Positions 8,306 through 35,550 of a stretch of DNA of 37,366 nt are shown here, piece after piece; positions within the stretch are counted from its first letter, which is position 1, and every line of letters starts with the position of its first letter. Both the position numbers and the translations under genes were made by a program. Source of the stretch: Alphaproteobacteria bacterium (GTDB lineage: Bacteria; Pseudomonadota; Alphaproteobacteria; Bin95); NCBI GenBank assembly GCA_022821735.1, contig JAJECZ010000193.1, forward strand, positions 1 through 37,366, read 5' to 3'. The notes below the pieces were generated by a model. That model was not told the origin of the DNA and did not search any database. It worked only from the letters and a program-made list of their open reading frames with translations.

Positions 8306-8315
8306 TTATGCCACC

Positions 8316-8582: not shown

Positions 8583-8598
8583 CCGAGGCGCAGGCAGG

Positions 8599-9348: not shown

Positions 9349-9647
9349 GCGGCAATCTCCCGGTTGGCGGCGTGCTTGCGCTCCGCGGCGCGGGCGCGGC
9401 AGTGCTCGATCAGCCGGCCGTATTCGTCGCCGTCGAGGATGCGGTCGACATGGAGCAGCGAGGCGAGCTGGAGGCCGATCAGGCGGATGGCGGGGTCGTC
9501 GCGCTGGGAGACCCCCTCCGCGATGGCCTGCCGGCAGGCGGTGTGCAGCGCGAGCGCGACGCCGGAGGGGTTGCAGGCCCCCGGATCGACGATGTCGAGC
9601 GCTGCGCGGTGGCGGTCGTACCGGGCGGGAAGGTCCGGGAAGCTCAT
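9345..9647 (-). CDS. hypothetical protein, 100 aa
   Basis: 4-bp ATGA overlaps with radC and with the upstream ORF. Confidence 0.7.
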   Translation of the reverse strand: MSFPDLPARYDRHRAALDIVDPGACNPSGVALALHTACRQAIAEGVSQRDDPAIRLIGLQLASLLHVDRILDGDEYGRLIEHCRARAAERKHAANREIAA

Positions 9648-9976
9648 CGCCCGGCCCTCCTCATACTGTCGACGAGGCCGTCAACGACCGCCGCGTCGGC
9701 GCCGCAGGCCTCGCCCCAGCCGCGCAGGTTGCGCTCGAAGTCCTCGACGCAGCCGAGATGGGCGTTGAAGAACGGGTCCTCGGTAGTGGCGGCCAGCACC
9801 GACTCGCCGGCAACGGATATCCCGGTGATGGCCGGGAGGGTCATGGGTTCGAGGCCGAGCAGCCAGCAGAGGAAGGCGCCGAACATGGGCGAGAGGCTCT
9901 CGCCCCGGCGCGGGTCCATCGGGTGCATCGGCGGCGGCGCGCCGGCGGGCGCGGCGGCAATCGCGGGATCGGGCAT
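9644..9976 (-). CDS. hypothetical protein, 110 aa (MPDPAIAAAPAGAPPPMHPMDPRRGE...)
   Basis: ATG 9976 preceded by CACGGAGACCGCCC SD; 4-bp overlap with next gene. Confidence 0.7.
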   Translation of the reverse strand: MPDPAIAAAPAGAPPPMHPMDPRRGESLSPMFGAFLCWLLGLEPMTLPAITGISVAGESVLAATTEDPFFNAHLGCVEDFERNLRGWGEACGADAAVVDGLVDSMRRAGR

Positions 9977-10004
9977 GGGCGGTCTCCGTGATCGGGAAAG
10001 GAAA

Positions 10005-10037
10005 GCGCCCCCGCCCGCGTGCCGGGGGACGGGGCGC
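10005..10037 (-). terminator. GC-rich hairpin followed on minus strand by CTTTCCTTTCCC; terminator- or attenuator-like
   Basis: gcgcccc...ggggcgc stem downstream of the DUF2958-like stop and about 28 nt before the next start codon. Confidence 0.45.
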
Positions 10038-10059
10038 AAAACCGGGCTGCGCAAAGGGA

Positions 10060-10446
10060 TCAGGCGCCGGCGGGACTTGTGCGGCTGCGGGCGGCCGCGT
10101 CGAGTTCCGGACCCAACTCCACGATGCGCCCGGCACGGCGCGCGGCTTCGGCGTAGACGCCGATCGGGTGGACCGGCTGGAACCAGAGGTCCCGCTCGAT
10201 GCCGAGGCCGAACGGACCCTCGAAGGCCTCCAGTTCGCTGAGGCGCACGCTGCCGAGCTCCGGGGTGCCGAACCCGAGATCCATGAGCCCGAAATGGATA
10301 TCGGGGTCCTCCGGATCGGCATCCACGATCAGCCAGGTGCCGGCGCCGGCGGGGTTGAACCACTTGACCAGCGGAACCCTGTCGCTGTCGGGGTTCCTGC
10401 CGTTGGCGATCAGCTGCTCGCGAAGTTCGGGGGTAAGCAGTTCCAT
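10060..10446 (-). CDS. DUF2958-like protein
   Basis: MELLTPELREQLIANGRNPDSDRVPLVKWFNPAGAGTWLI...FGLMDLGFGTPELGSVRLSELE is characteristic. Confidence 0.85.
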   Translation of the reverse strand: MELLTPELREQLIANGRNPDSDRVPLVKWFNPAGAGTWLIVDADPEDPDIHFGLMDLGFGTPELGSVRLSELEAFEGPFGLGIERDLWFQPVHPIGVYAEAARRAGRIVELGPELDAAARSRTSPAGA

Positions 10447-10535
10447 GGGTTGTCTCCCGGCGGGGTGAACGGGTGTGCGGCGGGCCGGAACGCTCCCGCG
10501 CCCCGCCCGCCCGGCGCCCCCCGGGAGGCCGGCCA

Positions 10536-10552
10536 CCGCTCCGGGGGAGCGG
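10536..10552 (-). other. intergenic hairpin ccgctcc-ggg-ggagcgg
   Basis: Perfect 7-bp stem in intergenic spacer. Confidence 0.35.
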
Positions 10553-10625
10553 AACCGGCAGCGGGCCCGATGGCAGGGAGGCGGCGCCAACCCCCGGATG
10601 GAGGTCCGGACCGGGTTCCGGCGGC

Positions 10626-10847
10626 TCAGTGGGGCGCTATCTCCGGTATCGAACCGGGCGGGCCGAGATCGACCGCGACATTGCCGTCGCGGACGGTGAC
10701 CGTGACGGTGCGGCCGGGCGGCATCAGCCAGAGCAGGTCGGTCCAGACGGCATCGGCGATGGCGCGCTTCTGCGCTTCGTCACCGGGCTCCTCCGGAGCG
10801 GGCGCGATGAATGCCGTGCTCGCGGCGGGCATGGCGTCGAGCTTCAT
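10626..10847 (-). CDS. small hypothetical protein (MKLDAMPAASTAFIAPAPEEPGDEAQKRAIADAVWTDLLWLMPPGRTVTVTV...)
   Basis: ATG 10847 with GACGGAGACCGCAACC SD leader. C-terminus resembles the C-terminus of the 11278..13056 protein (both 'IW/LWLMPPGRTV..VTVRDGNVAVDLG' / 'LIWLAPRERTVDIRIRRPDVTVTLG'). Confidence 0.65.
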   Translation of the reverse strand: MKLDAMPAASTAFIAPAPEEPGDEAQKRAIADAVWTDLLWLMPPGRTVTVTVRDGNVAVDLGPPGSIPEIAPH

Positions 10848-10871
10848 GGTTGCGGTCTCCGTCATGGCGAA

Positions 10872-10901
10872 CCGCCCCGGCGCGGGACGGCGGCGGGGCG
10901 G
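10872..10901 (-). other. intergenic hairpin ccgccccg...cggggcgg (8-bp stem, 14-nt loop)
   Basis: Inverted repeat between 10940..11281 and 10626..10847 genes. Confidence 0.35.
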
Positions 10902-10939
10902 CTTCGGGTTGGATGGAAGGTCGGCGGCCCGGCGGCCAG

Positions 10940-11281
10940 TCAGCCGTCCAGGATGCGGACCCGGGCCCTGCCGTCCTCGACGCGGGCGGCGGGCCGGCCG
11001 TCCGGGCCGAGCCACACGGTCACCAGCGGCGGCTCGCCGCCTTCCGCGAAGCGGTCGGGGACAGGGAGTGACCCTTCGCCCCAGGGATCGCGGCCGGCGC
11101 CCTCGCAGACCGCATCCACATGGGTGTAGGTGACATGATCCGTGCTGCGCCAGCCGGCGGCGTCTTCGTTGGCGGTGCCGATGGCCTTTCCGAGGGCTTC
11201 CTCCAGGCTCCCGGCCTCGACCGTGACGGTATTGGCGTGGTGCGCATAATACCCGCACTGCACGGTCCAGGCCCGGGTCAC
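10940..11281 (-). CDS. hypothetical protein, GTG start (VTRAWTVQCGYYAHHANTVTVEAGSLEEALGKAIGTANED...)
   Basis: GTGA overlap with stop of upstream ATPase gene; coding-like sequence. Confidence 0.7.
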   Translation of the reverse strand: MTRAWTVQCGYYAHHANTVTVEAGSLEEALGKAIGTANEDAAGWRSTDHVTYTHVDAVCEGAGRDPWGEGSLPVPDRFAEGGEPPLVTVWLGPDGRPAARVEDGRARVRILDG

Positions 11282-13056
11282 GACGCGGCCTCCGCGGCGG
11301 CGCCGAGGGTCACGGTCACGTCGGGCCGGCGGATGCGGATGTCGACGGTGCGCTCCCGCGGCGCGAGCCATATCAGCTCGCGGCGGACGGCCTCCACGAT
11401 GGAGGTGCGGCAGGCCTCGTCGTCGGACAGCAGCAGGCGGGTCGCCAGATGCAGCGCCTGCTCGTCGAACCGGTCGCGCTGGGTCTCCCAGCTGTCCGAG
11501 TCGGCCTCGTCCGACGGCGAGAAGAACCCGGCCCTGAGAAGTTCGGCAAGCTCGTGCGGCTGGAGGGCGCTGTCCACCGCCACCAGCGGCATGGCGTCGT
11601 CGATCCAGCCCCAGGCCTCCCCGGCGAAGACAAGATCGGCCGGCAGGTCGAGGGTGCGCGCCGGACCCGATGCCGGACGGACGGCGAGCTCGAACCGGAT
11701 GGCGGCAGGCCGGGAGGGCAGCGGCGCGGCCGGTGAACGCGACGTCTCGGGCAGCGGGTACTCGTCGAGCGCCATCCACTCGCCCCCGGCGGCGACCTCG
11801 ACATGGATCGCGGTCACCCGGTCGAGCCCGTCATACCAGTCGTAGCCCTCCAGCCTGCGGTCGGTCTCGAACAGGTGCCGAGCGATGCCGTCGCGTTCGG
11901 CGGCGCGCCAGAGCGCCTGCGCCTCGGGCGGCTCCGGATCGCAGGCCATGACAAGGGCGTCGTGGCCGGCGGCGGCGAGCTTCGGCGGATCGCGCCAGTC
12001 GTTGACATCGGCGACGGAGGGCCGCCAGGGCCGCAGCAGGGCCGGCGGCGGTGCGATGCCGATGCCGGCCTCGCGCGCCCGCGTCCAGTCCCGGAAGACG
12101 GGGCGCGGGTCGGGGTCGGCGGCCATGGCGCGGTAGGCGGCGAGGCGTGCGGCTTCGCGCATCTCGTCCAGGAAGGCGTTCCCGACCGCCTCCTTGCGGG
12201 CCGGCAGGACCAGCTCCAGCTCTGGGCAGTCCTGGATGTCGGCACATACGCTCCAGACGGGCCCGTGGACGGTCTCGACCGCGGGAAGCCCGACCGGCAG
12301 GGTGAGGCCGAAGAAGTTGAGGTCGGGGTCGTTGTAGCCGCGGTGGCGGCTCCGGAAGACGCCGAAGGCAAGGCCGCGCCACCGCTCGGCATGGACGGCC
12401 CCATCGAGAAACGCACGGCGGGGCAGCTCCTCCGGGCCGGCGCCGCCTTCCGTACCGTCCTCGAAGAGGACCGGAAGCGGGTAATGGCGGGCGGCGTTCT
12501 CGGCCGCGTTGCGGATCGCGCCGGCGGACTCGCCCGCCCGAAACGAAATCGACGTCCCATAGGGAAACGGCGCGCTGTCGTCGGCATGAACCTCGGCCTC
12601 GGCCTCCCCGAGAAAATGCGCCGGGGCCAGTTCGACCGTCCAGCCCGGCGGGGTCTCGCCGTCCGGTGAACGCGGGCGCGAGGTGACGGTGCAGCCACGG
12701 CGGGCCAGGCTGGCGAAGCCGAAGCCGGCGGCGTCCTCGCGCCGGACCAGCTCGTCGGACCAGCCGTTCTGGCCGAAGCTCAGCAGCAGGGCGGGATCGG
12801 CGATGCCCTGGCCGTCGTCGGCGACTGTGACGGTGAAACCGTTCTCGCCGCCATCCGGCGACTGCCCTGCCGGCCCGGGGACCGGCGCAGAGACAGAGAT
12901 ATGAACTTGGGTGGCGCCGGCCCGCCGGCTGTTCTGCAGGGTCTCGGCGAAGATGTCGGCAAGGGTTGCGGCATAGATGCGGGTGACCCGCCTGACGGCG
13001 CTCTCGTGGATGCGCGCGCGTATGGTCGGCGGGAGAGGTACGGCGGTGGGGCTCAT
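11278..13056 (-). CDS. GHKL (Bergerat-fold) ATPase
   Basis: N-box 'FAETLQNSRRAGAT', G1 'VADDGQGI', G2 'AAGFGFASLARRG'. Confidence 0.85.
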   Translation of the reverse strand: MSPTAVPLPPTIRARIHESAVRRVTRIYAATLADIFAETLQNSRRAGATQVHISVSAPVPGPAGQSPDGGENGFTVTVADDGQGIADPALLLSFGQNGWSDELVRREDAAGFGFASLARRGCTVTSRPRSPDGETPPGWTVELAPAHFLGEAEAEVHADDSAPFPYGTSISFRAGESAGAIRNAAENAARHYPLPVLFEDGTEGGAGPEELPRRAFLDGAVHAERWRGLAFGVFRSRHRGYNDPDLNFFGLTLPVGLPAVETVHGPVWSVCADIQDCPELELVLPARKEAVGNAFLDEMREAARLAAYRAMAADPDPRPVFRDWTRAREAGIGIAPPPALLRPWRPSVADVNDWRDPPKLAAAGHDALVMACDPEPPEAQALWRAAERDGIARHLFETDRRLEGYDWYDGLDRVTAIHVEVAAGGEWMALDEYPLPETSRSPAAPLPSRPAAIRFELAVRPASGPARTLDLPADLVFAGEAWGWIDDAMPLVAVDSALQPHELAELLRAGFFSPSDEADSDSWETQRDRFDEQALHLATRLLLSDDEACRTSIVEAVRRELIWLAPRERTVDIRIRRPDVTVTLGAAAEAAS

Positions 13057-13088
13057 GCGGGACCCTCCGTGACATGCGGAAAGAAAGC

Positions 13089-13119
13089 GCCCCGCCGGGC
13101 GGTGAACCCGGCGGGGCGT
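13089..13119 (-). terminator. 12-bp perfect stem hairpin followed by CTTTCTTTCC on minus strand; terminator- or attenuator-like
   Basis: cgccccgccggg-cggtgaa-cccggcggggcg between stop of ParB-like gene (13140) and start of ATPase gene (13056). Confidence 0.6.
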
Positions 13120-13139
13120 CTCGATGGCCGCCGTGGCGG

Positions 13140-15542
13140 TCAGTGGACGCGGCGGAGGAACTCGGGGATCTCCGCCGGGTCCGCGGGCGGGGCGTGGCCG
13201 TTGACCGGACCGGTGTGGATACCGGCGTCGTCCTCCTCGCTGGCCGTGGATGGACCGGTGTCGACCGCTTCGGCAGTGATGCCGTCGCCGGTCTCGTCCG
13301 CAGCGTCATCGCCCGACGGTTCGGCCGACGCGGCATGGCCATTGCCGTCAACCGCAGCCGGAGCGTCCCCAGTTGCGGTGTCGGAGCCGGCGGCCCCTTC
13401 CACGGGTTCCGCTTCGGCGGAGGCCTCGACGGCGTCCGGCGCGGGCTGCGCCTCCGCCGCCGCGTGGTCCACCACGTCGCCGATGCGCCCGGTATCGAAC
13501 GCCCTGAAGCCGGGCGGTGTCCAGGCGAGCGCCGCCGCGTGCATCCCGGCGCTCAACCCCGGCGGGGTGGCGCCGGCCGCGAACGCGGTCTCCATCGCCT
13601 CCGCCAGCACCGGCTTCCTGGTCTTCGCGCGCGCCGACGCCCAGGCGATGCCGAACACCGTGCGGGCGATGTCGAGGATGCGCGCCTTGGCGATCCGCGA
13701 CCACAGCATCGCCGCCGTCGGGCGGACATGCTTCGCGAACTCGATGTCGAGGCGGGCCACCGTGGCTTCGAGCTCGGGACGCGCCTCGGGCTCGAAGGCG
13801 AGTTGCGGCTTTACCGTGCGCGCGACGCAGGCGGCGAACAGCGCCTGCTTCTCGGCCACGGGCAAGGCCCGGAGCGCCGCGAAGGACTCGCCGTCGTCCT
13901 CGATCTCCAGCCAGTCCAACGACAGGCCGGAGCGGTCCTCAAGCATCGCCTCGCCCGGCGACCAGTCGGCGAAACCGGCGTCGTTCATCCGGGTGGTCGG
14001 CCGGTCGGCGGTCTCGCGCACTGCGATGTCGAGCGCATGCGGCGTGTAGCCGCGGGTGAACACGGAGCGCCCCATCTGGAACACCGTGAGGTCGAAGGCC
14101 GCCTCGAAGTCGCCGGCGAGATGCGCCTTGACCAGCGCGGTCCGGATATGCCGCAGGTCGTCGGCCAGCCCGATGCCGACGCCCGCCTCCTTGCGCGCCT
14201 CGGCCTCGCGGTCGCGCGGCGGCGCCATCGGGGTCGAGACCGGCGAACCGGCGTTGTGGACAGCAGGACCGCCGGTGTGGACGCCGTGGGTCGCGGCATT
14301 CGGGTCGTGACCGTTGGCGGCCGGGGAGGCGGCGCCGCCGGCCTCTTCCGGCTTCGGCATGTCCTCGGGCTTCACCAGCCCCTGGATGACCTGCATCGCG
14401 CCGTCATGGCCGACGGTGACGATGCAGCCCGCCATGGCGAGATCCTCTCGCCGGAACACCGCGCGGGCGTCGACGGCGCCCGCGATCTCGTCGAGGCGGG
14501 TCTCGATGGCCTCGGCTTCCGAGACCAGCTCCCCGGTCCACTCCTCATCGTCGATCTCGGCGAGTTCCGCCTGCCGGGCTTCCAGCCTGGCGATCTCGGC
14601 CAGCTCCTCCTCGGTCGGTGTGCCGGGCTCGGGCTCGATGCGGCCGCAACTGGCAGTGTCGCTCCAGTCGACCTCGACCATGGCCATGGCCCACTTCCAG
14701 CGGGTCGCCAGCTCGTCGGCCGCAGCCTGGAGCTTCTGCGTCGCGAGCTTCTCCAGCAGCACCGGGTCCTCGAACCAGACGCCGCTCTCGTCGTCCCGCG
14801 CGAACAGGTCGCGCATGACGGCGCCGCCGGCGGCCTCATAGGCCTCGACGCCGACGAAGCGGGCGATCGCGGTGGCGCCTGGCACCCGCTCCTCGGTCAG
14901 CAGGCGCTTCACCTGCCAGGCCGACGGGCGGTATCCCTGGCCCGCGACCTGCTCCCAGACCGCCATCTGGCGCTCGCGGTCGGCGGTGACGGCGAAGGCC
15001 TTCAGCACTTCGAGGTCGATCTCGTCCGCGCGGTAGGCGTCCAGCAGTTCCGGCGCCGCGTTGCCGAGGCGGAGGCGCTGCTCGACGATGCGCTCGGAGG
15101 CCCCGAAACGCACCGCGATGGCGGAAACCGATTGGCCGGCGTCGGCCAGCTTCGTGAACGCGACCACCTGGTCGGCGGGGTGCATCGCGATGCGGATGAC
15201 GTTCTCGGCGAGCGAGAGTTCGGCGGGGTCGGCGTCGCCGGACCTGACCTGGCAGGGCACCGGATGGTCGGCATCGAACACCTTGTCCTCGACCAGCGCC
15301 TGCATGGCCCTGAAGCGGCGCCCGCCGGCGACCACCGCGTAGCGCTCGGCGCCATCTTCGGCGGAGTCATCGGTGCGGACGACGAGGTTCTCCAGCAGGC
15401 CGAGGGCGGCGATGGAGGCCTTGAGCTCGGCGTCGGCCCGGGGATCGGGCGGGGTCTTGCGGACGTTCTCGGGCGCGAGCGCGAGCCGGCTCAGCGGGAT
15501 CTCCCGGATGAGCGGCCCGGCCCCGGGGGCGATGAAGTTCAT
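13140..15542 (-). CDS. large ParB-like nuclease-domain protein (800 aa)
   Basis: 'IPLSRLALAPENVRKTPPDPRADAELKASIAALGLLENLVVR...YAVVAGGRRFRAMQAL' ParB/Srx N-terminal domain, followed by HTH-like 'SVSAIAVRFGASERIVEQRLRLGNAAPELLDAYRADEI'. Confidence 0.92.
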   Translation of the reverse strand: MNFIAPGAGPLIREIPLSRLALAPENVRKTPPDPRADAELKASIAALGLLENLVVRTDDSAEDGAERYAVVAGGRRFRAMQALVEDKVFDADHPVPCQVRSGDADPAELSLAENVIRIAMHPADQVVAFTKLADAGQSVSAIAVRFGASERIVEQRLRLGNAAPELLDAYRADEIDLEVLKAFAVTADRERQMAVWEQVAGQGYRPSAWQVKRLLTEERVPGATAIARFVGVEAYEAAGGAVMRDLFARDDESGVWFEDPVLLEKLATQKLQAAADELATRWKWAMAMVEVDWSDTASCGRIEPEPGTPTEEELAEIARLEARQAELAEIDDEEWTGELVSEAEAIETRLDEIAGAVDARAVFRREDLAMAGCIVTVGHDGAMQVIQGLVKPEDMPKPEEAGGAASPAANGHDPNAATHGVHTGGPAVHNAGSPVSTPMAPPRDREAEARKEAGVGIGLADDLRHIRTALVKAHLAGDFEAAFDLTVFQMGRSVFTRGYTPHALDIAVRETADRPTTRMNDAGFADWSPGEAMLEDRSGLSLDWLEIEDDGESFAALRALPVAEKQALFAACVARTVKPQLAFEPEARPELEATVARLDIEFAKHVRPTAAMLWSRIAKARILDIARTVFGIAWASARAKTRKPVLAEAMETAFAAGATPPGLSAGMHAAALAWTPPGFRAFDTGRIGDVVDHAAAEAQPAPDAVEASAEAEPVEGAAGSDTATGDAPAAVDGNGHAASAEPSGDDAADETGDGITAEAVDTGPSTASEEDDAGIHTGPVNGHAPPADPAEIPEFLRRVH

Positions 15543-19092: not shown

Positions 19093-19524
19093 CCGCCGGC
19101 GACAAACCCGTCGGCTCCGCGTGCGGGACGCAGCAAGGAATGGCACGAAGGTGGAAACAGCACAGGGACAGACAAAGAGCGCCTCCACGTCGAATCCGTG
19201 CGCTTGCGACACGATGACGGATGTCACCGCCCACTCGTCCATCCGGTACAGGGAATGCAAGCAGAGCGCCAACTTGGGCTCCCTGAGCGCTCCCCAGCCG
19301 CCCCGGCGTGACAGAACCGGCAGAAATGTGCCTTCACGGGTCTAGAGGGAAACGGCATGTCCTCAGGTAGTCCAGCCATTCATGCCAACAGTAAACCACC
19401 GAAGGGTCACCCCGACCGTCACCTTACATTGCCAAGGTGGACACGAACCGTCAGAAATGCGATCAAGGTGGTCGATGACGTTGAAGTATTCCACTGACGC
19501 GCAGCTCTTGCCAGGAACCGACAA

Positions 19525-20907
19525 TTGGATGCAGCTAGGGCGCAGCGAATCTTCAGCGACCTCCAAGGCGTATCCGTCGGCGGATGGATTGTAAGCCGGT
19601 ACATCGGCCATGGTGGATCAGCAGTCGTCTTGGAAGGTCGCCGAGGAGGTGTTGTCTCTGCATTAAAGTTGATCGACCCCGAACTTGTTGAACGATTTGG
19701 GAAAGAACGACAAATAGCTCGCATTCGCCGAGAAGGTGAGCTAATTGCACACGACAATCCATATTTGGTTAAAATATACGATGCCAACGTGTGTTTAGAG
19801 ACCGACTACCTTTATGTGGCCATGGAATTGCTAGAAACCCCAACCCTGACAGACTTGATTCCTGATTTCCCTCGTGACAAAATTCTCCCTATACTTGAAC
19901 AAGTAGCTCATGCCGCCAAATACCTGGAAGCGAAAAATTTTGCTCATAGAGACATTAAACCGGATAACGTTTCAATCACCGCAGATTACAAGACAGCTAA
20001 ACTTCTTGATCTTGGCATTATTCGTCCCGTGCTAATCGAGAACACCGGCAACGTTACTGAAGATGCCTTTATTGGTACCACTCGGTACAGCTCTCCAGAA
20101 TACTTAACTCGTGAAGGAGATGGGGACAGCCCATGCCGCTGGCGCTCCTTAACCTTCTATCAACTAGGAGCGCTTCTACACGACATGATAATGAGGCGAC
20201 CGCTTTTTCATGACATTGATCACCCCCGAACCCGGCTCACTGACGCGGTCCGCTACACTACACCCGCAATCGAGTGTGCCGAGGTACACCCTAGGCTTGT
20301 GTCTCTAGCGAAGTGTTGTTTGCACAAGAACTGGCGTCTTCGATTAAATCTAGTAACTTGGGACGCCTTTTCAACGAATCCCAGGGCAATTGATGCTCGT
20401 TCGGCGAAACAGAGGGTACTCGACCGCGTTGAGGCGGGACGAGGCTCTGCCGCTGAGCCGGAAACGCCGGTAGCAGTGCGTTCTCAAAGGAGTGTAGTGG
20501 CGGGCATTCGTGCTCATATGGCCAATACCATTCATCAATCTTGTACAGAGTCTGGGGCTTTTCCGCCCATCGCGATCAATGATCTGGGAGACCCTGATCA
20601 ACCATGGCTCATCATGCGCGCTGGCCCTTCCCAACAACACGCATTGGCGGATGTTCTGATTGTCGGGTTTCTTCTAGAAGTCCTCGATGAGACTGGCGTG
20701 TACGTTCGGATTAGCGCAGTATCAGCTCTCGGAGAGTCTCAGTTTCATGCTGAAATGCCGGAGCTTTTGCAGGTCTACTCGGGTGAAGTGACGTCGCCGC
20801 AACTACGATCCGAAGTTGACAGCTATATGTTTCTGGCTTTCGATCATGCCCAGAGAAGTATTACTCATCGTGAGTCGAATGTGCTGTCACTAGAGGTGCC
20901 GCAATGA
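19525..20907 (+). CDS. eukaryotic-like serine/threonine protein kinase with C-terminal extension
   Basis: Gly loop 'YIGHGGSAVV', 'SALKLI', catalytic loop 'HRDIKPDNV', 'LLDLGI', 'GTTRYSSPEYL'; TTG start with AGGAA SD. Confidence 0.93.
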   Translation: MDAARAQRIFSDLQGVSVGGWIVSRYIGHGGSAVVLEGRRGGVVSALKLIDPELVERFGKERQIARIRREGELIAHDNPYLVKIYDANVCLETDYLYVAMELLETPTLTDLIPDFPRDKILPILEQVAHAAKYLEAKNFAHRDIKPDNVSITADYKTAKLLDLGIIRPVLIENTGNVTEDAFIGTTRYSSPEYLTREGDGDSPCRWRSLTFYQLGALLHDMIMRRPLFHDIDHPRTRLTDAVRYTTPAIECAEVHPRLVSLAKCCLHKNWRLRLNLVTWDAFSTNPRAIDARSAKQRVLDRVEAGRGSAAEPETPVAVRSQRSVVAGIRAHMANTIHQSCTESGAFPPIAINDLGDPDQPWLIMRAGPSQQHALADVLIVGFLLEVLDETGVYVRISAVSALGESQFHAEMPELLQVYSGEVTSPQLRSEVDSYMFLAFDHAQRSITHRESNVLSLEVPQ

Positions 20908-22073
20908 CAAATGTATTCGAAACCTGGTGGCGTGAGCCTTCGGAACTAGACCACGAGCAGGGGAATGTTATTTCTCTACCACCGGATGGCAGTTATCTTG
21001 TGAAGGGCCCACCGGGCAGCGGGAAGACAAACCTCCTGCTTCTTCGGGCCAATTACGTCACACTCAGGGAACATTCTAATCTTGTGGTTGTAACGTTCAA
21101 CCGGACGTTGAGGGAGTTTATTCAATCTGGTGCCCAAAGGTACTCTTTTGAGCCAAACCGCATTGTGACAGTAAGGCAGTTTTTCAACGAGCTGCTAAAG
21201 GAGGCAAACCACAGCTATGAAGAGGCTGGAGATTTCGGAGAGATGCGGCGGGCTAGGTTGGAAGCTGTTCAGGAGATCGTAGCTAATAGAGGTGGCGCAA
21301 TTTTTGATGTAATCTTGCTGGATGAGGCACAAGACTATGTGTCTGGCGAGATAGAGGTGTTTCGGTCACTTTGCCATGATCTGTTTATGGTAGCGGATTC
21401 TCGGCAACAAATATATCCAGGTGATACGGATATGGGGTTTCTTGAAGATAAGGTTGATGAGCAAATCGAGTTGACGCGTCATTATCGGAACGGTTTGCCT
21501 ATATGTCAAGTCGCGGACGGAATTGGAGGCACGTTCAGTCGCCCCTATACAGCGATTTCACCAACATGCAATTACAATTCTCCGGACCTTCAACCATCAG
21601 TGGAGATTTTTCGCGGAAACTTTGATACACAATGCGAAGAGATAGCTCGCCGGCTACAGAACCAACGAAGAGCGTACCCGGAGGCCGTTCTCGGAGTAAT
21701 TTGCCCGCGACTTAGCGAGGTGAGCCGTATCAGTGAGTTCCTGTCGCGGACGGAGTTGGCGGATCTGGTGTGTGTCCAAACAAGGGAGGATGGGTATCAA
21801 CCGGTGGATCCGAGCAAGCCAATCTGGGTGTCCACGGTGCATAGCGCGAAGGGCTTGGAATTTCGAGCATTGCACTTCGCATCTGCTGAAATCGTCACCC
21901 ATTTTGGCGCGGAACAGAAACGCTTGACCTACACCGCTGTGACTAGGGCGAAGACGGCGCTGAATGTCTATCATGACAGAGCGTTGCCGGGGTACTTTGA
22001 CGCAGCGTTGAATGCTGTTCGACCAGTTGCGAGGCCGAACGCGGATATCGGGGTCGCTTTTGGCACGAAGTGA
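20904..22073 (+). CDS. compact SF1 (UvrD/Rep-like) DNA helicase
   Basis: GPPGSGKT, VVTFNRTL, LLDEAQD, VADSRQQIY, ELTRHYRN, VSTVHSAKGLEF, LTYTAVTRAKTALNV; 4-bp ATGA overlap with kinase gene. Confidence 0.95.
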   Translation: MTNVFETWWREPSELDHEQGNVISLPPDGSYLVKGPPGSGKTNLLLLRANYVTLREHSNLVVVTFNRTLREFIQSGAQRYSFEPNRIVTVRQFFNELLKEANHSYEEAGDFGEMRRARLEAVQEIVANRGGAIFDVILLDEAQDYVSGEIEVFRSLCHDLFMVADSRQQIYPGDTDMGFLEDKVDEQIELTRHYRNGLPICQVADGIGGTFSRPYTAISPTCNYNSPDLQPSVEIFRGNFDTQCEEIARRLQNQRRAYPEAVLGVICPRLSEVSRISEFLSRTELADLVCVQTREDGYQPVDPSKPIWVSTVHSAKGLEFRALHFASAEIVTHFGAEQKRLTYTAVTRAKTALNVYHDRALPGYFDAALNAVRPVARPNADIGVAFGTK

Positions 22074-23409
22074 AACATACTGGGTGGCGGACTTAAGCCG
22101 CGAAGACATCGTTGAGGTTGCTAGGGGAGGCCCTGCGAACCCGGTGCGAGTGCCTGCCTCGCAGATCCCTAGAATGGATGCGGGACCAGACGGGGCATTG
22201 GCGGTATGGCGTGCAGTATCCAAAGGTGAGCTCGGTTGCCTGCCCCAAGTCATTATTGCAGACCAAGGAGTTCTTGAGGACTTCACCGCGTGGGCAGCGA
22301 CCTATTTCCCAAGCTTGGGTCCCCTAAGTGCCCAAACCCGGTTGCTGACGCCAACGGTCTTGCGAGAGGCGCGTAGGAGAGAGAGCGCGACCAACTGGAG
22401 AAGGCTAGCGGCGTGCGCGGTGGCGCTCTGCTTTGGGGAGGTACTAAGTTATACAGATCAGTCCAGACGAGCGACGGATATTACCTTTATCATGTGCCGG
22501 AGTACACTTTCCTTTACCTTGATACGCAGTGCAATACTGGGTTTTCAACCAAGTAGAATAAAGGAAATAGCGCAATCATGGAGAAGTGTTAGGAGTAGGC
22601 TAGGTCAGTCCACTAACGTGGAGTCTTCACAGCTCGTTCAAGAAATTATATTTGACTTGGCCAAGAAGGCCGAGGTGGGCACAACAGCAAAAGGAAGGGC
22701 ACTGCTGGGTTACGATCTCGATGTGCCTTCAATTCTTGGTAGATATGGCGTATATGGCGTTGGTAATGAAGGGCCTTTATTTTCTAGCCGGCAAAAGCAT
22801 GAACGAAGCCTGACTGCGGAGGAAAGGGTCGAAATATTTGATCGTGTGAGCACGGCGCTGGTGCATGAAGGAGGGCGGGGAGATCTAGAGAAAGGGTTGA
22901 TCTTGGCGACTCTGGCATACTGGTGCAGAGCAGGCTTTCCCCAGCAGTTAGCGATTATGGCGCCCTATCAGGAGGTGTTTCCGCAAAGCACCATATGGTT
23001 AGCCGCGCTACAGCAAGAAAGCGCAAAATCGGATGCGCTAGCGATTGGAGAAGGGATTGGCTGGCGTTTGGCTAGGGAGTTATTTCGCGCCGGGGATGTA
23101 TTTGCCACGCCAAGTTGCGATATATCGGAATTGGAGCTCGAGGTGTTGATGAGAGGAAGCAACTTCAAAGGCTTGACGACTGCCTCGGATAGAGCCCGAC
23201 TGGAAGTGGAATTGTTTCCAGGGGTTACAACGGTTGTGAGAACCGAACACTACTCGGTTCAAAGTCCGGGTGAGGTGCCGATAACTGGCAACACTCTTCA
23301 TAGTGCTTTCGAAGAAAAAGAAAGAGAGAGGGCATTGAAGTCAGTGGAGAGTTCGTTACAGAGAGCCGTTAGGGATATTCAAAGGTTGCGGAGACAAAAA
23401 AGAAGGTAG
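22060..23409 (+). CDS. hypothetical protein, about 449 aa, third gene of kinase-helicase cassette
   Basis: Frame open from 22012; TTG at 22060 is a plausible start overlapping the helicase stop; no recognised domain motif; charged C-terminal 'EKERERALKSVESSLQRAVRDIQRLRRQKRR'. Confidence 0.75.
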   Translation: MARSETYWVADLSREDIVEVARGGPANPVRVPASQIPRMDAGPDGALAVWRAVSKGELGCLPQVIIADQGVLEDFTAWAATYFPSLGPLSAQTRLLTPTVLREARRRESATNWRRLAACAVALCFGEVLSYTDQSRRATDITFIMCRSTLSFTLIRSAILGFQPSRIKEIAQSWRSVRSRLGQSTNVESSQLVQEIIFDLAKKAEVGTTAKGRALLGYDLDVPSILGRYGVYGVGNEGPLFSSRQKHERSLTAEERVEIFDRVSTALVHEGGRGDLEKGLILATLAYWCRAGFPQQLAIMAPYQEVFPQSTIWLAALQQESAKSDALAIGEGIGWRLARELFRAGDVFATPSCDISELELEVLMRGSNFKGLTTASDRARLEVELFPGVTTVVRTEHYSVQSPGEVPITGNTLHSAFEEKERERALKSVESSLQRAVRDIQRLRRQKRR

Positions 23410-23537: not shown

Positions 23538-24458
23538 TCAACTTTTACCCAGAACATCGGTCAGCTTTTGCGCCTTCTGCAGGCTTGCGAACGACGTGTA
23601 GCGAGGGCTCTGCATGGCACCCTGCGGAGCGTTTCCGTAGGGAATAGGCCCGATAGGCTTGGCGCTCTCCGAAAACACAACCTTGTACTTTCCGCCTTCG
23701 CCATAGGGCTCGATACGGGAGACAGGGGCGTAGTGCGTGATGGCGGAAACAGGCTGCGTGCGATATGCGGCGATGTATTTGATCTTGTCGAGCATGCCGC
23801 CGGAGATGCGAATCGCATACCAACAGTGTTGGCCGAGGAACGTCTCCTCGAACCCGTCCTTCTGGGCCGGAACGATGATCGTGTCGCGCTTCCGGCTTGT
23901 CGGCTGTGCGCTGGACAGAGGATCGGTGGCGAACGGAGCCGCGACCGCCTTCGGGAACTCGAAGGCCCGCAGACCGACCAGAGGAAGAATCTGCAGAATC
24001 TCCTTCATGAATCCTTGGGTGTCTGCCTTCTCGGCTTCAGTCAGCGATGGCTCCTGGGGCGCGTTGCCGTTGTCGAGAAGGGAGCGCCCTGTCTCCACAC
24101 CTCGCTTGACGAGGGCATATTCGAGCCAGGTGACGTGCGCCCGGTTCAGTCCGCCGGAGGTCGAAACGAACACCGCGGCCCAATCCCAGAAGTCCTTGTC
24201 CTTGTGGTGCGAATCGATGCGCCCCTTCACGCCGTCGGCCTGCCCGATATAGAGGGTGGGCAGATCGTCATCCTCGTTGCGGTAGCCGACGAGAACGTAG
24301 ATGCCGGTGCGCTGCATTTCGCTGCGCTGGCGAACCTCGGACCAGTCGGACCTGCGAAAAACCAGCCCAAGGCCGGTCCAGTTCATGCGGTCGATCAGGC
24401 GGACCCCTTCCGGATCGCCATCAGGGACAAATATGCGGATGGTGAACGGATCAGCCAT
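23538..24458 (-). CDS. GIY-YIG nuclease family protein with C-terminal unknown domain
   Basis: 'GIYVLVG', 'LYIGQADGVKGRIDSH', 'WLEYALVKRG' canonical GIY-YIG motifs; ATG at 24458. Confidence 0.93.
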   Translation of the reverse strand: MADPFTIRIFVPDGDPEGVRLIDRMNWTGLGLVFRRSDWSEVRQRSEMQRTGIYVLVGYRNEDDDLPTLYIGQADGVKGRIDSHHKDKDFWDWAAVFVSTSGGLNRAHVTWLEYALVKRGVETGRSLLDNGNAPQEPSLTEAEKADTQGFMKEILQILPLVGLRAFEFPKAVAAPFATDPLSSAQPTSRKRDTIIVPAQKDGFEETFLGQHCWYAIRISGGMLDKIKYIAAYRTQPVSAITHYAPVSRIEPYGEGGKYKVVFSESAKPIGPIPYGNAPQGAMQSPRYTSFASLQKAQKLTDVLGKS

Positions 24459-25648
24459 TATTGTCTCGCGACGAGAGACGCGGAACTTGCTTCGTATCGA
24501 TATTGGGTAATGGTTCCATCCCGGATCTTTTGAACTGCGTCGTCGATGACGTCGAGAGGCACCAGGAACCACTCGCGCGGCACAACCGGATTGCCGAAGC
24601 GGTCTTCGATCTCGATGTCAAGACGCGCCGGCGCGAAGATGCGGTGGATCAACTGCTCCAGCTTCGCGCGGTCGATGTTGTAGAGACTATAGGTGGCGAC
24701 GATCTGGACCTCGGCCATCAGGAACGTCGGGTCGAGCCGGGCGCCGGCGATGCGCGTTTCCACCTTCGCGGTGGTGACGCCGATTTTATGCACGAGGTCA
24801 CGGTTTTCAGCGACGAACGGAATATCCGCCTTGCTCCGCAGCACGTAGATGGTGCCGCTGGCCTCGTCGCCGTCCGCGGTCATGTCAGCAAACAGCGGAC
24901 CCGCCGACGTCTCCAGTATCCGTCTGCCCTTCTCGTCCTTGTGCAAGGCCCGCTGGAGCGAACGCCTGAGCATGTTGCTCTCGGTGCCGTTATCAAAGAT
25001 CACGCGCAGCCGCGCGTCGCGGTCGCCGTAACGCTGCGTGAACTCCTCGCCCATCTCAGCGACATAGGCTTTCTGCCCGCCAATGATGAAGAACCGGCCG
25101 GGCTCGATGTCGGCCTGGATGCCAAGGGGACGGGTTTCCCGGAGACCGGCGTCCAGTTCCTTCTGGACTTGCTCGAAGAGCGGACGGAACGTCTCGAAGT
25201 CCTCGCATTTGCTGCGGGTCGCGATCTCCTCAGCGGCGCGTTTCTCTGCGCTCGATCGCACGTGGCGGAGTTCGCCAATGTCCGGCGCGGCAGACTCGAC
25301 GCCGAGCTCCGCCAGCAAGGCGTCGTCGTCCATACCGTCCGGGGACGGGGAGGCGGTTTCGGCTGGATGGCTCAGGAGATCCTGATGGTCGAGAGAGGAT
25401 AGCAATTCCCGACATTTATCCTGCTCGCGGATACGGTCCAAACGCACCGCATAGAGACGTTCGAAGATGTCGCCGTCCTCGCTGTGGCGCGGAGCGTGGC
25501 CATGCGCCTCGACGAAACGCTGGATTTCTTCGAAGCCCGCGATGATCCTCTCTTCTTTCGGCGTGCGGCTTGCCGCCTTCTCCGGCTCGACGACGACGCC
25601 GAGGTCCGCGAGCAGGGCGTCGTCCTCGTCGGTGAACTTCCTATCCAT
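24458..25648 (-). CDS. GIY-YIG nuclease of the Mug113/T5orf172 type
   Basis: 'SGTIYVLRSK', 'VHKIGVTTAKVETRIAGA', 'LEQLIHRIF', 'REWFLVPLDVI'; stop/start abut with flanking genes. Confidence 0.88.
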   Translation of the reverse strand: MDRKFTDEDDALLADLGVVVEPEKAASRTPKEERIIAGFEEIQRFVEAHGHAPRHSEDGDIFERLYAVRLDRIREQDKCRELLSSLDHQDLLSHPAETASPSPDGMDDDALLAELGVESAAPDIGELRHVRSSAEKRAAEEIATRSKCEDFETFRPLFEQVQKELDAGLRETRPLGIQADIEPGRFFIIGGQKAYVAEMGEEFTQRYGDRDARLRVIFDNGTESNMLRRSLQRALHKDEKGRRILETSAGPLFADMTADGDEASGTIYVLRSKADIPFVAENRDLVHKIGVTTAKVETRIAGARLDPTFLMAEVQIVATYSLYNIDRAKLEQLIHRIFAPARLDIEIEDRFGNPVVPREWFLVPLDVIDDAVQKIRDGTITQYRYEASSASLVARQ

Positions 25649-27686
25649 CGGCGGCCGCAGCCTTCATGCGGGCGAGGAACGCCACGCCCTCTGCCATGCG
25701 CTTCTCCCATGGATCCGCTGACGTGATCGACGGCAGGCGGCCGCGCTCCTGCTTGAACCGGAGGGCTCGCCGCGCGAGGTCGCGCGCCTCCTCCGGAGTG
25801 AGTTGGATTTTCTTCGCCGTGATGATGGCGGCGACCTGTTTCAGGCTCTCCTCGCTCATCGCTTTGGCCAGGATCGCGTAGGCCTCGCCGAAGGGGTTGA
25901 TCCTGTCGATCAGGTCGATTTCGAGGTCGCGCACGTCCATGGCGAATTTCCGGACACCGTCGATCAGCGCGGTGCCGCCGTTCGACTGTGCCTGCGGCTC
26001 ATCGAGCACGGCCTCCTTCGCCTTCTGGGTCAGGTTCAGCGCGGCGATGGCGTGCTGGCGAACCGCCTCCCGGTCTTCTTCGGAGAGTTCGGGATATCGA
26101 TCCGTGACGATCTTGCCCATACGGACCTGGGTCAGTTCCTCAGGCACGAGTTCCTCGTCGAACAGCCCGCGCTCTACGGAAGTCCTGTCCTGCGCGAACG
26201 CAGCGATCACCTCGTTCAGATCCTCCCGGCAGATGCGCTCAGCCTCCTTGCCCTTCGGTGCCACCAGTCCCTTGATCTCGATGTGGAACTGGCCGGTATC
26301 GTGATTGAAACCGACATTGCACTTCTCCGGGTCGTAACCTTCGTCGCCGTAGTCGGCGCCCTCGACCGGACCGCTTTCCGGTCTCTTCGGCGTGAAGTTG
26401 AAACGGGGCGCGAGCACCTGCTCCATCAACAGGCTCGCCGCGATAGCCTTGAGCGTATCGTTCACGGCCTCGGTGACCGCCTCTTCCGAGGCGTCGGGCT
26501 CGGCGATCAGGTTGGTGAAGCGGGCGCGGGCCTTACCAGGCGCATCGCGGGTCGCGCGGCCGATGATCTGCACGATCTCGGTCAGGCTGGAGCGGTAGCC
26601 CACCGTCAGCGCGTGATTGCACCAGATCCAGTCGAAGCCCTCCTTGGCCATGCCGAGGGCGACGATGATGTCGACATGGTCGCGGTCGCTCATCCGGTCC
26701 GTGTCCCGGAGCGCGGCAGCGACCGGCTCCCGCCTCACAGGGTCATCGTCGACCAAGTCAGCGATCCGCAGAATGCGGCCTCCGGGCATCCTGACCAGCT
26801 GAAATCCGGTCGTCGCGTCCGTGCCTTCCCACTCGCCCAGCTCCTCGATGATGTGCTCCACCTCACGAATCTTGTCCTTGGTGCTCTCGCGCGAATTGAC
26901 GCTGGGGATGTGGATGATCGTCTTCTCGCCCGGATCGAGCACCCGCAGGATGTCGTCGGCATAGTTCCCTGTGTAGAAGAAATAACCGATGTCGAGCCGC
27001 TTCAGATACTCATAGCCGTTGAGCTGCTCGTAGTAGGTATATGTGACGGTCTCGAACCGCGCCTCGTCGTGGGGCATAAGCACGGGCTGGGCATCGCCCC
27101 GAAAGTACGATCCCGTCATGGCCACGATATGTGTCCGGTCGCGGGCAATGAGCTGTCCGACATGCTCGCCCAGCCGATTGTCGGGATTGGCCGAGACGTG
27201 GTGGAACTCGTCGACCGCGATCAGTCGGCCGTCGAAAGCATCCGCGCCGAACCGTTCCATGGCGAAGCGGAAGGTGGCGTGGGTGCATACCAGGACGCGG
27301 TCATCGCTCTTGAGAAAGGTCTTGACGGAATTGACCTTGCCGCCGTCCGTGCCCGGAGCGTTGCAGAGGTTCCATTTCGGGGCAACGGTCCAGTCGGCCC
27401 AGAAACCGAACTCGCGCAACGGCGCGTCAGCGAAGCTCGCCCCTATGGTCCTCTCGGGCACGACAATGATTGCCTGACGAAGGCCCTGGTTGTGCAGTTT
27501 GTCGAGCGCGATGAACATCAGCGCCCGGCTCTTGCCCGATGCCGGTGGCGACTTGATCAGGAGGTACTGCTCGCCGCGCTTCTCCCACGCCCTCTCCTGC
27601 ATCGGGCGCATGCCGAGTTCGTTGGATCGGGTGGAACTGCCGCTGCAGGCGTACGTGACGGAAACGGAGGGGGCGCTTTCGTTCAT
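25641..27686 (-). CDS. SF2 DEAD/DEAH-type helicase (restriction-helicase-like)
   Basis: 'LIKSPPASGKSRALMFIAL' Walker A, 'RLIAVDEFHHVSA' DExH, 'VAMTGSYFRG' motif III, 'VQIIGRATRDAPGK' motif VI. Confidence 0.93.
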   Translation of the reverse strand: MNESAPSVSVTYACSGSSTRSNELGMRPMQERAWEKRGEQYLLIKSPPASGKSRALMFIALDKLHNQGLRQAIIVVPERTIGASFADAPLREFGFWADWTVAPKWNLCNAPGTDGGKVNSVKTFLKSDDRVLVCTHATFRFAMERFGADAFDGRLIAVDEFHHVSANPDNRLGEHVGQLIARDRTHIVAMTGSYFRGDAQPVLMPHDEARFETVTYTYYEQLNGYEYLKRLDIGYFFYTGNYADDILRVLDPGEKTIIHIPSVNSRESTKDKIREVEHIIEELGEWEGTDATTGFQLVRMPGGRILRIADLVDDDPVRREPVAAALRDTDRMSDRDHVDIIVALGMAKEGFDWIWCNHALTVGYRSSLTEIVQIIGRATRDAPGKARARFTNLIAEPDASEEAVTEAVNDTLKAIAASLLMEQVLAPRFNFTPKRPESGPVEGADYGDEGYDPEKCNVGFNHDTGQFHIEIKGLVAPKGKEAERICREDLNEVIAAFAQDRTSVERGLFDEELVPEELTQVRMGKIVTDRYPELSEEDREAVRQHAIAALNLTQKAKEAVLDEPQAQSNGGTALIDGVRKFAMDVRDLEIDLIDRINPFGEAYAILAKAMSEESLKQVAAIITAKKIQLTPEEARDLARRALRFKQERGRLPSITSADPWEKRMAEGVAFLARMKAAAADG

Positions 27687-28543
27687 GCGGGCCTGACCCT
27701 CCGGTCGAAGCGGCGAAGGAACAGGCGTGCCGTCACGAGCGAAATCTGAAGCCTGAAGGTTGCATCTTCTTCCTCGGACAGGCCCGGATGTCCGCCATGG
27801 GGATGCATTCTGCTCATCAACCCCTGAACGTATTGTGGCTTTTGGTTGTTGGGATTCCACTCGTTGTAGTCGATGAGCAGGAACGGTGGCTGAAGGCGGC
27901 CGAGATAGTCCCGTTTAGCCTTGCCGTCACCGCTACCAGCATAACCCAACCCGGTGGCGATTTCGTTGAGGTAACTTTCATGGAAGTTTCGCAACTCTCC
28001 GTTGGCCGATGACCACTCCCCACGTCCGAATGCTGAGAGTGCCTGAGTCAAATGCCCCTTCGCAACGGTAAGGCCGTGTCGGTTCAATAGCAGTGCAATT
28101 TCGGTTTCAGCTTCCCGGAAATCGAGTTCGGGAACGTCTGAAGGCAGCATCCGCACAAGCTGAACGGTCGTTTCCGTTTGCTCGCTTGGCCAATAGGCTT
28201 CGGAGTCGACCTCTTCCTCCGTCGTGCGAACTTCGAACCCGTCAAATCGCAAGCCTGCAACGAGCTTCCTCCAGGCAGCCGAATGTTGCATGTACTCGGC
28301 CGCCGAAATCGCGATTTCGACTACTGCGCGGCTCAAGTGTACCCGTCCACCTTCTGTCAGGACCTCAATTTCCTCCTCGCAGGCGATACGCGCCCAGTCC
28401 GCAACCCGCGCCGGTTTGCTCGACGCTCTGCACCTTCCTGCTATACCCCACTCGACCTCCAGCACCTCCATGGCGCCGTGTGACTGGAAACTCGAAACGA
28501 CCTCGGCAGCAGCGACGACGGTCATGCGACTGAACTCGCTCAT
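27683..28543 (-). CDS. hypothetical protein, 286 aa, with C-terminal 'HPGLSEEEDATFRLQISLVTARLFLRRFDR' motif
   Basis: ATGA overlaps with both neighbours; intact ORF. Confidence 0.85.
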   Translation of the reverse strand: MSEFSRMTVVAAAEVVSSFQSHGAMEVLEVEWGIAGRCRASSKPARVADWARIACEEEIEVLTEGGRVHLSRAVVEIAISAAEYMQHSAAWRKLVAGLRFDGFEVRTTEEEVDSEAYWPSEQTETTVQLVRMLPSDVPELDFREAETEIALLLNRHGLTVAKGHLTQALSAFGRGEWSSANGELRNFHESYLNEIATGLGYAGSGDGKAKRDYLGRLQPPFLLIDYNEWNPNNQKPQYVQGLMSRMHPHGGHPGLSEEEDATFRLQISLVTARLFLRRFDRRVRPA

Positions 28544-32778: not shown

Positions 32779-35550
32779 CTACCTGCGTGCTGCCGCAGCG
32801 AGCCTCCGGAAGGCTGGATCGGATGTAGAAGAGGGGGCTTTGGATTCTATTCGACCCAGCGCGGCGCCGAGGTCATCGGGAATTGCTGCGTATTGCGTGT
32901 CGCCGACCGTCAGGTCGAGCAGCCGCAGGAACGCGAGAGCCTTCGGCGCATCATCAATCGCTTCCGACAGTTGCGGCATCCGCAGCTGTTCCGACATACC
33001 GCCTTCAAGGAAGCCGTAGCCGAGCATCGACGAGCAGTCGAAAGGAACGAGGAAACGCTCGATTTCGTCGACCGCTTCCGAAAATGCCTCGCCCGAGACT
33101 GCCGGGAGACAGGCAAGTTGATGACTGACGCCTGCGGTGGCGAGGGATCGTTCCTGCGGCCAGACTTGTTCCAGAAAGGGCTTGACGGCCGACAAGAACG
33201 ATATGCGCGCCGTGTGTGGCCCGTGGTCGACCTTGTATTCGTAGTCCTGAAACTGCCGGATCGCCAAGGCGGCCCATTCCCGTATGTCATCGTCGGCAGC
33301 GCGCAGCGCCTGGGAAATACGGGCCGGGGAGACGGCCGGCTCGCGCTGGTCCTTGAATGCGGTCAGTCCTTCGTGGACCAGACAGGACACAAGGTCCTTC
33401 CGGGCTTCCTTGTCGAGTCGATCATCGAGAACCCTTTTCGATACCTCGTCGCCGATAATTTTCAGGACTTCCGAATCAATCCAGATCGATGCGACTGCAC
33501 GCCAAAGCAGGACCGATTTGTCGTCGTCCGCCAGCAGCGGCTCGACGAGCTGCCGCCTCGCCCATGCAGGGTCGGCCCGAAGAAGTTCCGGTAGCTTCCG
33601 GGTAAGCTGACAATGTGCGATGAGACCGCTGTAGCCCGGCGCGGCAATGGTGCAATCGCGCATCTGCGCGAACAGGCTTCCATCGTCGATTGGATGGCGA
33701 CTTTCGTCGGTGACCCGAACCAACTCCAGAAATACCCGGAGAAGCTTCCCGACAGGCCGGGGAAACGCATCGATTTCCTCCGGTGCGCGCCCTTCGCCGG
33801 CTGTCCGAACAGGTATGTCTGCGAGGTCCCTGTCGTTTCCGGCCGTGGTTGCATTCTCGGCCTCGACGGCAACCGGCCATGCGCGCAGCCAGGCCCGTTG
33901 TCCCTGCTTGCTCTCGATTACGTGCTCGGACCACATGTAGAGCCAGTGGCAAATTCCGCCGACCGCCGCCTCGACGGTCGCGTCGGAAAGCCGGTTCAAC
34001 AGGCCCAGGACCCGAACGGCTTCAGACCGGGTGTCGCGCGGCGTCTCGCTCTCTGGCTGCGACCCAAAGTGCGTGTGCGTATATCCGAACCGATCCCAGA
34101 GGCGAGGGAAGCGATCGACCAGAGAAGCCGCACTCTCGAGATCGCGCAGAACATGAACGGCCCGACCGGACTGTTGGAGCCAGTCCGAGGCCTGGTCGGC
34201 GGAAGTCTCGCCTGACAGGGCAACCTCAAGCGCCTGAAGCCGGGCTTCCCCTTCCAGATCATCGAAACGGGATCCCGGAGCAATGCCCGGTGGAAAGCGG
34301 GGTCGGACCCACGGATCGCGAAAACCACCGTCGATAGTCATTTTTCCGAGACCTGGAAATTCGTTGGCCGCTTCAACCAGCCAGTCCCGGTCCGGGATCG
34401 GCAGGATGCCGCCGCCAGTCTCGATCCGCCTGAGTTCCATTGCCGAGAATCCGCGTCTCGCAGCACGAACCTGTTCGGCATCCATAGTTCCGGGGAAAAA
34501 CCTGCGGGGCAGTCCCCTGCGCAAACGCCTGACGATCAGCGCTTGTGTTTCGGTCTCGAAGTCAGCGAAACGTACCGCGCGTAGTTCGGCGAATTCCGGA
34601 AAGCGCGGAAAATTCCAGAAATCGTTGTCGTCGAGGGCCGTCAGGAACTTGCCTGCTTCGACGGCAGAAACTGCGTCGGCGTTGCGAGCGGCAGCTGCCC
34701 ACAGACGCCGGTAGATCGCCATATCGGAATAACGCCAACGCCAAAGGAACGATCTCGCTGTCCCGACGTCGAGTTCGGCGAGGCGCCGGACCACCGCATG
34801 AAGCAATTTGACGGCAGGTCCCATACCGGGGGTAACGGCATCGGGTTCGAAGACCCGACCGCCCGGTCCGTCCCAGTCGTTGACGCCAATTTCCGGAGGC
34901 ACGAAATACACCCGAAGAGGAGAAGCGTCGGCATACCAGTCGTCCTCGTTGTCGCCGTAGATGCGCCGGGCGATGTAGAGGCCGCGGTCGATTGCGGACA
35001 TCAGGGCGCTTGCCAAGGCATGGAGAAAGACGGCATCGGCTATCTCGTCCAGGCCGAAGTCCATGCGGTGGTTCTGGAAGCCGATTAGAAAGCTGGTGCT
35101 GCTCAGGCTGGCCGATAGCAGGTCACTGAACTTCTTCGGACGTCGGGGCTTTCGACCGGGTAACCCGGGGCGGCGGGCTTGCAACGGTTTCAATTCGAGC
35201 CGTGGAGCCAACAGGTTGGTGATGTCGTCGATGAGCGCGCCGGAACGGTCTCCCTTCTGCAGCCGCCTGCGGATCTGCTGAAGCGCCGCTGCCGGAGTGG
35301 CTCCGGTCGTCGGACAGGACCAGCTTTCCAGGGTAAGAGACCATGCGGTTGCATAGGGCTCCCGAAGTCGCGTCGCACCAGGGCCGGTCAAGAGTTCGAG
35401 AATTGCGGAGCGTTCGACCTGCCTGTCGGGTCTCAGCCTGAGTGCCCAGTTCAAGATTTCCGGTTCCGCGAGACGGCCCTCGAGAAACGCCGCCGCAGTC
35501 CGGAAACGCGCCCGGTCCTGCACATTGAGGTCTGACGGCGAGGAGATCAC
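32779..35550 (-). CDS. large hypothetical protein (923 aa), partner of SIR2 gene; possibly DUF4020-like
   Basis: GTG start overlaps SIR2 stop (GTGA); mostly helical composition; family suggestion from memory only. Confidence 0.85.
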   Translation of the reverse strand: MISSPSDLNVQDRARFRTAAAFLEGRLAEPEILNWALRLRPDRQVERSAILELLTGPGATRLREPYATAWSLTLESWSCPTTGATPAAALQQIRRRLQKGDRSGALIDDITNLLAPRLELKPLQARRPGLPGRKPRRPKKFSDLLSASLSSTSFLIGFQNHRMDFGLDEIADAVFLHALASALMSAIDRGLYIARRIYGDNEDDWYADASPLRVYFVPPEIGVNDWDGPGGRVFEPDAVTPGMGPAVKLLHAVVRRLAELDVGTARSFLWRWRYSDMAIYRRLWAAAARNADAVSAVEAGKFLTALDDNDFWNFPRFPEFAELRAVRFADFETETQALIVRRLRRGLPRRFFPGTMDAEQVRAARRGFSAMELRRIETGGGILPIPDRDWLVEAANEFPGLGKMTIDGGFRDPWVRPRFPPGIAPGSRFDDLEGEARLQALEVALSGETSADQASDWLQQSGRAVHVLRDLESAASLVDRFPRLWDRFGYTHTHFGSQPESETPRDTRSEAVRVLGLLNRLSDATVEAAVGGICHWLYMWSEHVIESKQGQRAWLRAWPVAVEAENATTAGNDRDLADIPVRTAGEGRAPEEIDAFPRPVGKLLRVFLELVRVTDESRHPIDDGSLFAQMRDCTIAAPGYSGLIAHCQLTRKLPELLRADPAWARRQLVEPLLADDDKSVLLWRAVASIWIDSEVLKIIGDEVSKRVLDDRLDKEARKDLVSCLVHEGLTAFKDQREPAVSPARISQALRAADDDIREWAALAIRQFQDYEYKVDHGPHTARISFLSAVKPFLEQVWPQERSLATAGVSHQLACLPAVSGEAFSEAVDEIERFLVPFDCSSMLGYGFLEGGMSEQLRMPQLSEAIDDAPKALAFLRLLDLTVGDTQYAAIPDDLGAALGRIESKAPSSTSDPAFRRLAAAARR

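Follow-up and report, generated by a model that had tools for sequence, protein, structure and literature searches.

Do three overlapping genes of an alphaproteobacterial contig, encoding a Ser/Thr kinase (K), a helicase (H), and a protein of unknown family (X), form a defense system that has not been described? We addressed this question for the window, by which we mean the whole stretch of 37,366 nucleotides that was analyzed (contig JAJECZ010000193.1), where the three genes follow each other on the plus strand in a region that is coding throughout. K (19525 to 20907, 460 aa) starts with TTG and overlaps H (20904 to 22073, 389 aa) by 4 nt. The open reading frame (ORF) of X was called at 22012 to 23409 on the plus strand, and its homologs support a TTG start at 22060, which yields a protein of 449 aa (22060 to 23409) and an overlap of 14 nt with H, the same as in L004, L006, L023, L025, and L027. 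A blastn comparison with the nearest relative, L006, revealed a shared segment covering positions 19432 to 22661 of the window. The stretch upstream of K on the plus strand (19432 to 19524) is thus common to both and likely represents the start, on the promoter side, of an exchange unit; it contains no convincing sigma-70 site. Since the GC content of the trio is about 51 to 53% with a low GC3, against about 70 to 73% for the left flank in the window, we consider that the trio was acquired.

To find other loci, we scanned GTDB species genomes and plasmid and viral collections with a helicase profile and added whole-genome searches, which gave 38 distinct loci, counting the window (L003, L004, L006 to L037, and L085 to L087). 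Duplicates were not counted (L002 and L088 correspond to L035, L089 to L018, and L005 is another plasmid with the copy of L004), and the wider helicase matches (L038 to L084), which are HelD, NERD-UvrD, or similar proteins, served as controls only. X was located directly behind H in 38/38 distinct loci. The upstream side is visible in 37 loci, L034 being cut by a contig end, and 35 of these have K immediately upstream of H. In all trio loci, the order was constant, with gaps of at most 47 nt and overlaps of up to 14 nt, and the loci covered five phyla (Pseudomonadota, Planctomycetota, Acidobacteriota, Thermodesulfobacteriota, and Binatota). Among 386 genomes of the same class, H and X were present in the same three genomes and neither was found apart, the third genome being that of the kinase-less locus L087; the three plasmid records that contain a full-length, closely related H were also the only ones with full-length K and X. 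The distribution is sporadic, with a prevalence of about 0.5 to 0.8% of genomes (3/386 and 2/399), and no near match to a Pseudomonas copy of the cassette was found in E. coli genomes. Pairwise distances were correlated between the proteins (0.84 for K-H, 0.73 for K-X, and 0.75 for H-X), with 0/2000 permutations giving values as high. Because dozens of independent loci have the same order and the distances correlate, the association goes beyond chance. We also observed that K of L026 (8585 to 10004) is split by an apparent frameshift into 389 aa and 117 aa; H and X of this locus, which was counted among the 35, are intact.

We then analyzed the sequences of the three proteins. K matches Pfam Pkinase (3e-24) with a kinase domain at approximately aa 20 to 285, and K48, HRD (aa 141 to 143), K145, N148, D162, and G164 are invariant in 34/34 homologs, from which we infer an intact, active-looking Hanks-type Ser/Thr kinase; these intact residues do not tell a sensor from a switch or an effector. 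An AF2 model (pLDDT 83.4, pTM 0.81) places an alpha-beta(5)-alpha domain (aa 321 to 444) after the kinase domain; among the 386 same-class genomes, this C-terminal domain occurs only in the two kinase-bearing cassette genomes. In a Foldseek search with the full-length model, AMPK alpha and CaMKII ranked top and MARK1-KA1 was also listed, with rmsd values of 16 to 25 Å. The assignment of the C-terminal domain to KA1 is unsupported at such values and with an empty profile search, and we retain it as a lead only. H is a compact SF1 helicase of the UvrD/HelD type, devoid of a NERD or nuclease domain, which matches UvrD_C_2 (4.8e-12) and UvrD-helicase (1.1e-11) in Pfam and has HelD as its closest PDB relative (1.7e-24). 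Its residues Q19, GxPGxGK, DEAQ (aa 140 to 143), Q168, R195, KGxE (aa 316 to 319), R348, and K350 are invariant in 36/36 homologs.

For X of the window, Pfam, NCBIfam, PADLOC, and PHROGs gave no match, and a search of 36 family members against Pfam and PADLOC gave nothing meaningful, only a few weak matches of one or two members each. The AF2 model (pLDDT 84, pTM 0.81) predicts a mainly helical protein, for which neither PDB nor BFVD gave a structural match at E≤0.001; the fold is thus apparently new, as far as a predicted model and these two collections can tell. Only W174, W313, D354, and E359 are invariant across the family. Mean column identity is 28% for X versus 46% and 52% for the other two proteins, which makes X the fastest-evolving member, and such rapid evolution is compatible with a sensor and equally with an effector subject to escape. 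The last 15 residues contain on average 36% K/R over the family versus 11% elsewhere, and the shortness of this basic tail is a caveat for a role with nucleic acids. Proposals that X is a nuclease, a TPR protein, or a known adaptor were rejected, as neither sequence nor fold supports any of them. The earlier note, made without database searches, had described three overlapping plus-strand genes for an apparently active Hanks-type kinase, an SF1 helicase of about 390 aa with all motifs, and a protein of about 450 aa without a recognizable motif. This description held, with the start of X moved to 22060 and with the reservation that, for K, it is the intactness of the motifs that was confirmed, activity being inferred.

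The two exceptions to the position of K before H, L017 and L087, both keep H and X. In L017, a P-loop ATPase of the Sll1717 family (NF047389, 1.4e-60) precedes H, and no kinase of the K family was found in the genome; as the ATPase gene lies ∼35 nt upstream, it might be a separate neighbor rather than a replacement. In L087, the place of K is occupied by a gene encoding 269 aa and by an unknown domain of ∼270 aa fused to H. Because relatives of the 269-aa gene occur on other plasmids without H and X, we consider it a separate module. With the reservation that only two replacements are available, K appears as the exchangeable member and H and X as the constant core. Several minor observations concern these loci. 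In L017 (7698 to 9958), serine recombinase genes are found directly before the ATPase gene, whose product shows a distant relationship to the model of the anti-phage protein DS41_1 (5.7e-11). The 269-aa family (L087 at 4130 to 6867, L091, L093, and L094) has the motifs LIHTT, YFYGRPAYR, YPxDTGA, and DDRxxxIE; on rhizobial and Phaeobacter plasmids, the gene is followed by a second one with a variable C terminus, which in L087 is fused to the helicase. That this family corresponds to ADP-ribosyltransferases was a mere impression from motifs, without support from PDB, and was not retained.

Three Rhizobium copies (L004, L025, and L027) delimit the mobile unit. They share 90 to 96% DNA identity from ∼235 bp before K to 13 to 16 bp after X, which corresponds to an exchange unit of about 4.2 kb, and L004 has nothing else in common with the other two. 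L025 and L027 also have their left flank in common, and L025 contains an additional 3.86 kb between this flank and the cassette. In 33/34 loci, the trio has a lower GC content than the flanking DNA. Two loci, L085 and L086, correspond to Mu-like proviruses with the trio as cargo; in L085, it lies on the opposite strand, between an I-like protease gene and an F-like head gene. Taken together, these results show that the trio is a discrete unit, horizontally mobile among bacteria, plasmids, and prophages. As a separate observation, the additional 3.86 kb of L025 (4495 to 8349) is a GajA-GajB pair, meaning that Gabija was gained or lost exactly beside the cassette relative to L027. The F-like/I-like head-gene junction (L085 at 7029 to 13481) looks like a site for accessory genes in Mu-like phages of Rhodobacterales: at this junction, two related phages have little, i.e., a small gap or gene (NC_031059 and KT381864), and a third has other small ORFs (NC_020839).

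We also looked into the neighborhood of the trio. The window contains an MmeI-type IIG restriction-modification (RM) gene (1e-271), a SoFic gene (1e-175, NCBIfam model), a SIR2_2 gene (5.6e-19), and PDC-S14. We took the three genes flanking each trio locus on either side, and these neighbors (83 and 100 proteins) matched 117 and 138 PADLOC models, respectively, at E≤1e-20, versus 11 models for the 90 neighboring proteins of the HelD control. The families represented include type I RM, Dpd, Hachiman (which adjoins L004), Gabija, RmrA, PsyrT, dGTPase, and RTasHel. These counts of models are not counts of systems, as models of one family overlap, and the HelD control loci are mostly from Bacilli, so that their hosts differ from those of the trio loci.

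Does the trio correspond to a system that already has a name? In the defense system Mokosh type I, a Ser/Thr kinase and an SF1 helicase are combined within a single protein (MkoA), whose partner is a PLD nuclease (MkoB). This fusion is absent here, K and H being separate ORFs in all trio loci; MkoA matches K over the kinase domain only (residues 73 to 224, 2e-8), and no PLD family was found in Pfam or PADLOC for any X. In PADLOC, H is closest to the UvrD part of the NERD-UvrD protein C3a187 (7e-22, profile positions 192 to 546 of 559), but H lacks NERD. A kinase model of the same series, C3a189, matches K partially (2.6e-16, positions 39 to 213 of 840). X has no counterpart among these CRISPR type III accessory proteins, and the window contains no CRISPR-like repeats. 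The kinase domain of K matches the stand-alone kinase PD-T4-6 (8e-31) over residues 16 to 269 of 460 only, which leaves its C-terminal domain unmatched, and next to K its partners H-X are always found. The UvrD-like core of GajB matches H (1.5e-14) with partial profile coverage, but no GajA match was found among the scanned proteins of the window, and in L025 Gabija is a separate neighbor. K scores 36 bits with the MADS kinase MAD6 (cutoff, 460) and 24 bits with PglW of BREX type 2/Pgl (cutoff, 990), and no PglZ match was found among the scanned window proteins. Ser/Thr kinase activity drives defense in KKP and Stk2 (PMC11341870), but neither contains a helicase or X, and KKP is composed of two kinases and a phosphatase. 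HelD is larger than H and binds RNA polymerase, whereas H is devoid of the large HelD insertions; HelD genes do not have K or X as neighbors and are found in a different genomic context. Filing the trio under Mokosh, Gabija, PD-T4-6, MADS, BREX, or the NERD-UvrD accessory was therefore rejected, as the tested feature failed each time. The association of a kinase with an SF1 helicase is a theme already known from Mokosh and from C3a187/C3a189, and X has no known relatives in the libraries searched. Named systems were sought in PADLOC 2.0 (2023), NCBIfam (2026), and Pfam (2025), and DefenseFinder systems added after 2023 were not covered. The open-access literature that we searched, including the relevant passages of PMC13092281, names no such trio and reports no phage experiment on this cassette; subscription journals were not covered.

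Since the trio moves as one unit and sits among defense genes, we propose that it is very likely an undescribed three-gene system directed against phages (or other mobile genetic elements), a conclusion that rests on genomic evidence without experiment. What is shown is that the enzyme motifs are intact, that the genes obligately co-occur and move as an exact unit, that they lie in a defense or prophage setting, and that K is replaced in places where H and X are retained. The undescribed defense cassette proposed in the earlier note is thus supported at the level of genomics, protection and toxicity remaining undemonstrated. Its restriction, Fic, and SIR2 neighbors were confirmed, the gene order was found again in unrelated defense islands as well as in plasmids and prophages, and neither PADLOC 2.0 nor the literature searched provided a named system; we refine the proposal in that the kinase is exchangeable around a constant helicase-X core.

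As to how the trio might function, a sensor that engages nucleic acids and detects the processing of phage DNA or RNA would be formed by H, as an SF1 motor driven by ATP, and by X, the obligate partner of H, which ends in a basic tail. K would be docked on H-X via its private C-terminal alpha/beta domain, and sensing would release it to phosphorylate host or phage targets, so that the infected cell stops (abortive infection). This order of roles, with H-X as the sensor and K as the licensed effector, is inferred, and we consider it as likely to be wrong as right, given that protection, a complex, the trigger, and the targets are not shown. In a bolder reading, toward which we are slightly skeptical, H and X would be a modular sensor chassis, where X, the founder of a new family and fold, would recognize phage replication or transcription and license an interchangeable upstream module, mostly the kinase and elsewhere the Sll1717-family ATPase or another two-part module.

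The rival that survives best is that K is the switch: it would sense infection and phosphorylate H or X, and the H-X machine would then attack or block the invading nucleic acid. This remains possible and is not excluded. In its favor, Gabija and comparable systems have SF1 helicases that act on nucleic acid, neither H nor X is ever replaced, the tail of X is basic, and the high ranking of AMPK alpha and of KA1-autoinhibited MARK1 for the K model points to a kinase with a regulatory C-terminal domain. However, X has no recognizable nuclease motif or fold, its invariant D354 and E359 resemble no known catalytic motif, and H has no nuclease domain. A role outside defense, either in addiction to or maintenance of the element or in the control of transcription or replication stress (e.g., a HelD-like recycling of RNA polymerase), seems unlikely to us. 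HelD is the best PDB relative of H and the cassette is found on plasmids and prophages, but the sporadic spread, the known defense families around, the precise swapping next to Gabija, the lack of the large HelD insertions in H, and the different context of HelD speak against it. That unrelated genes came to lie side by side by chance, in an island rich in genes, has nothing in its favor beyond the first locus and is all but excluded by X following H in every locus, K preceding H in all but two, the correlated distances, and the K, H, and X families not being found apart in the sets searched.

Returning to the anti-phage reading, if the trio is protective, it would add a kinase-driven defense system present in five phyla, on plasmids, and in Mu-like prophages, and it would provide a function for the X family, for which none of the libraries searched gave a relative. 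With a kinase that can be exchanged and an H-X pair that cannot, the trio would also offer a clean way to separate the phage-sensing part from the killing part.

Two other groups of genes in the window, both on the minus strand, deserve mention. At 32782 to 36848, the SIR2_2 gene (35550 to 36848) abuts a gene for a 923-aa protein without a Pfam or PDB match, and the two may form a two-gene SIR2 system. Beside the trio, at 23541 to 28543, four overlapping genes encode a GIY-YIG-looking homolog of PDC-S14, a MUG113/T5orf172 (GIY-YIG) protein, a DEAD/ResIII helicase, and an unknown protein of 286 aa, which might represent another multigene defense system.
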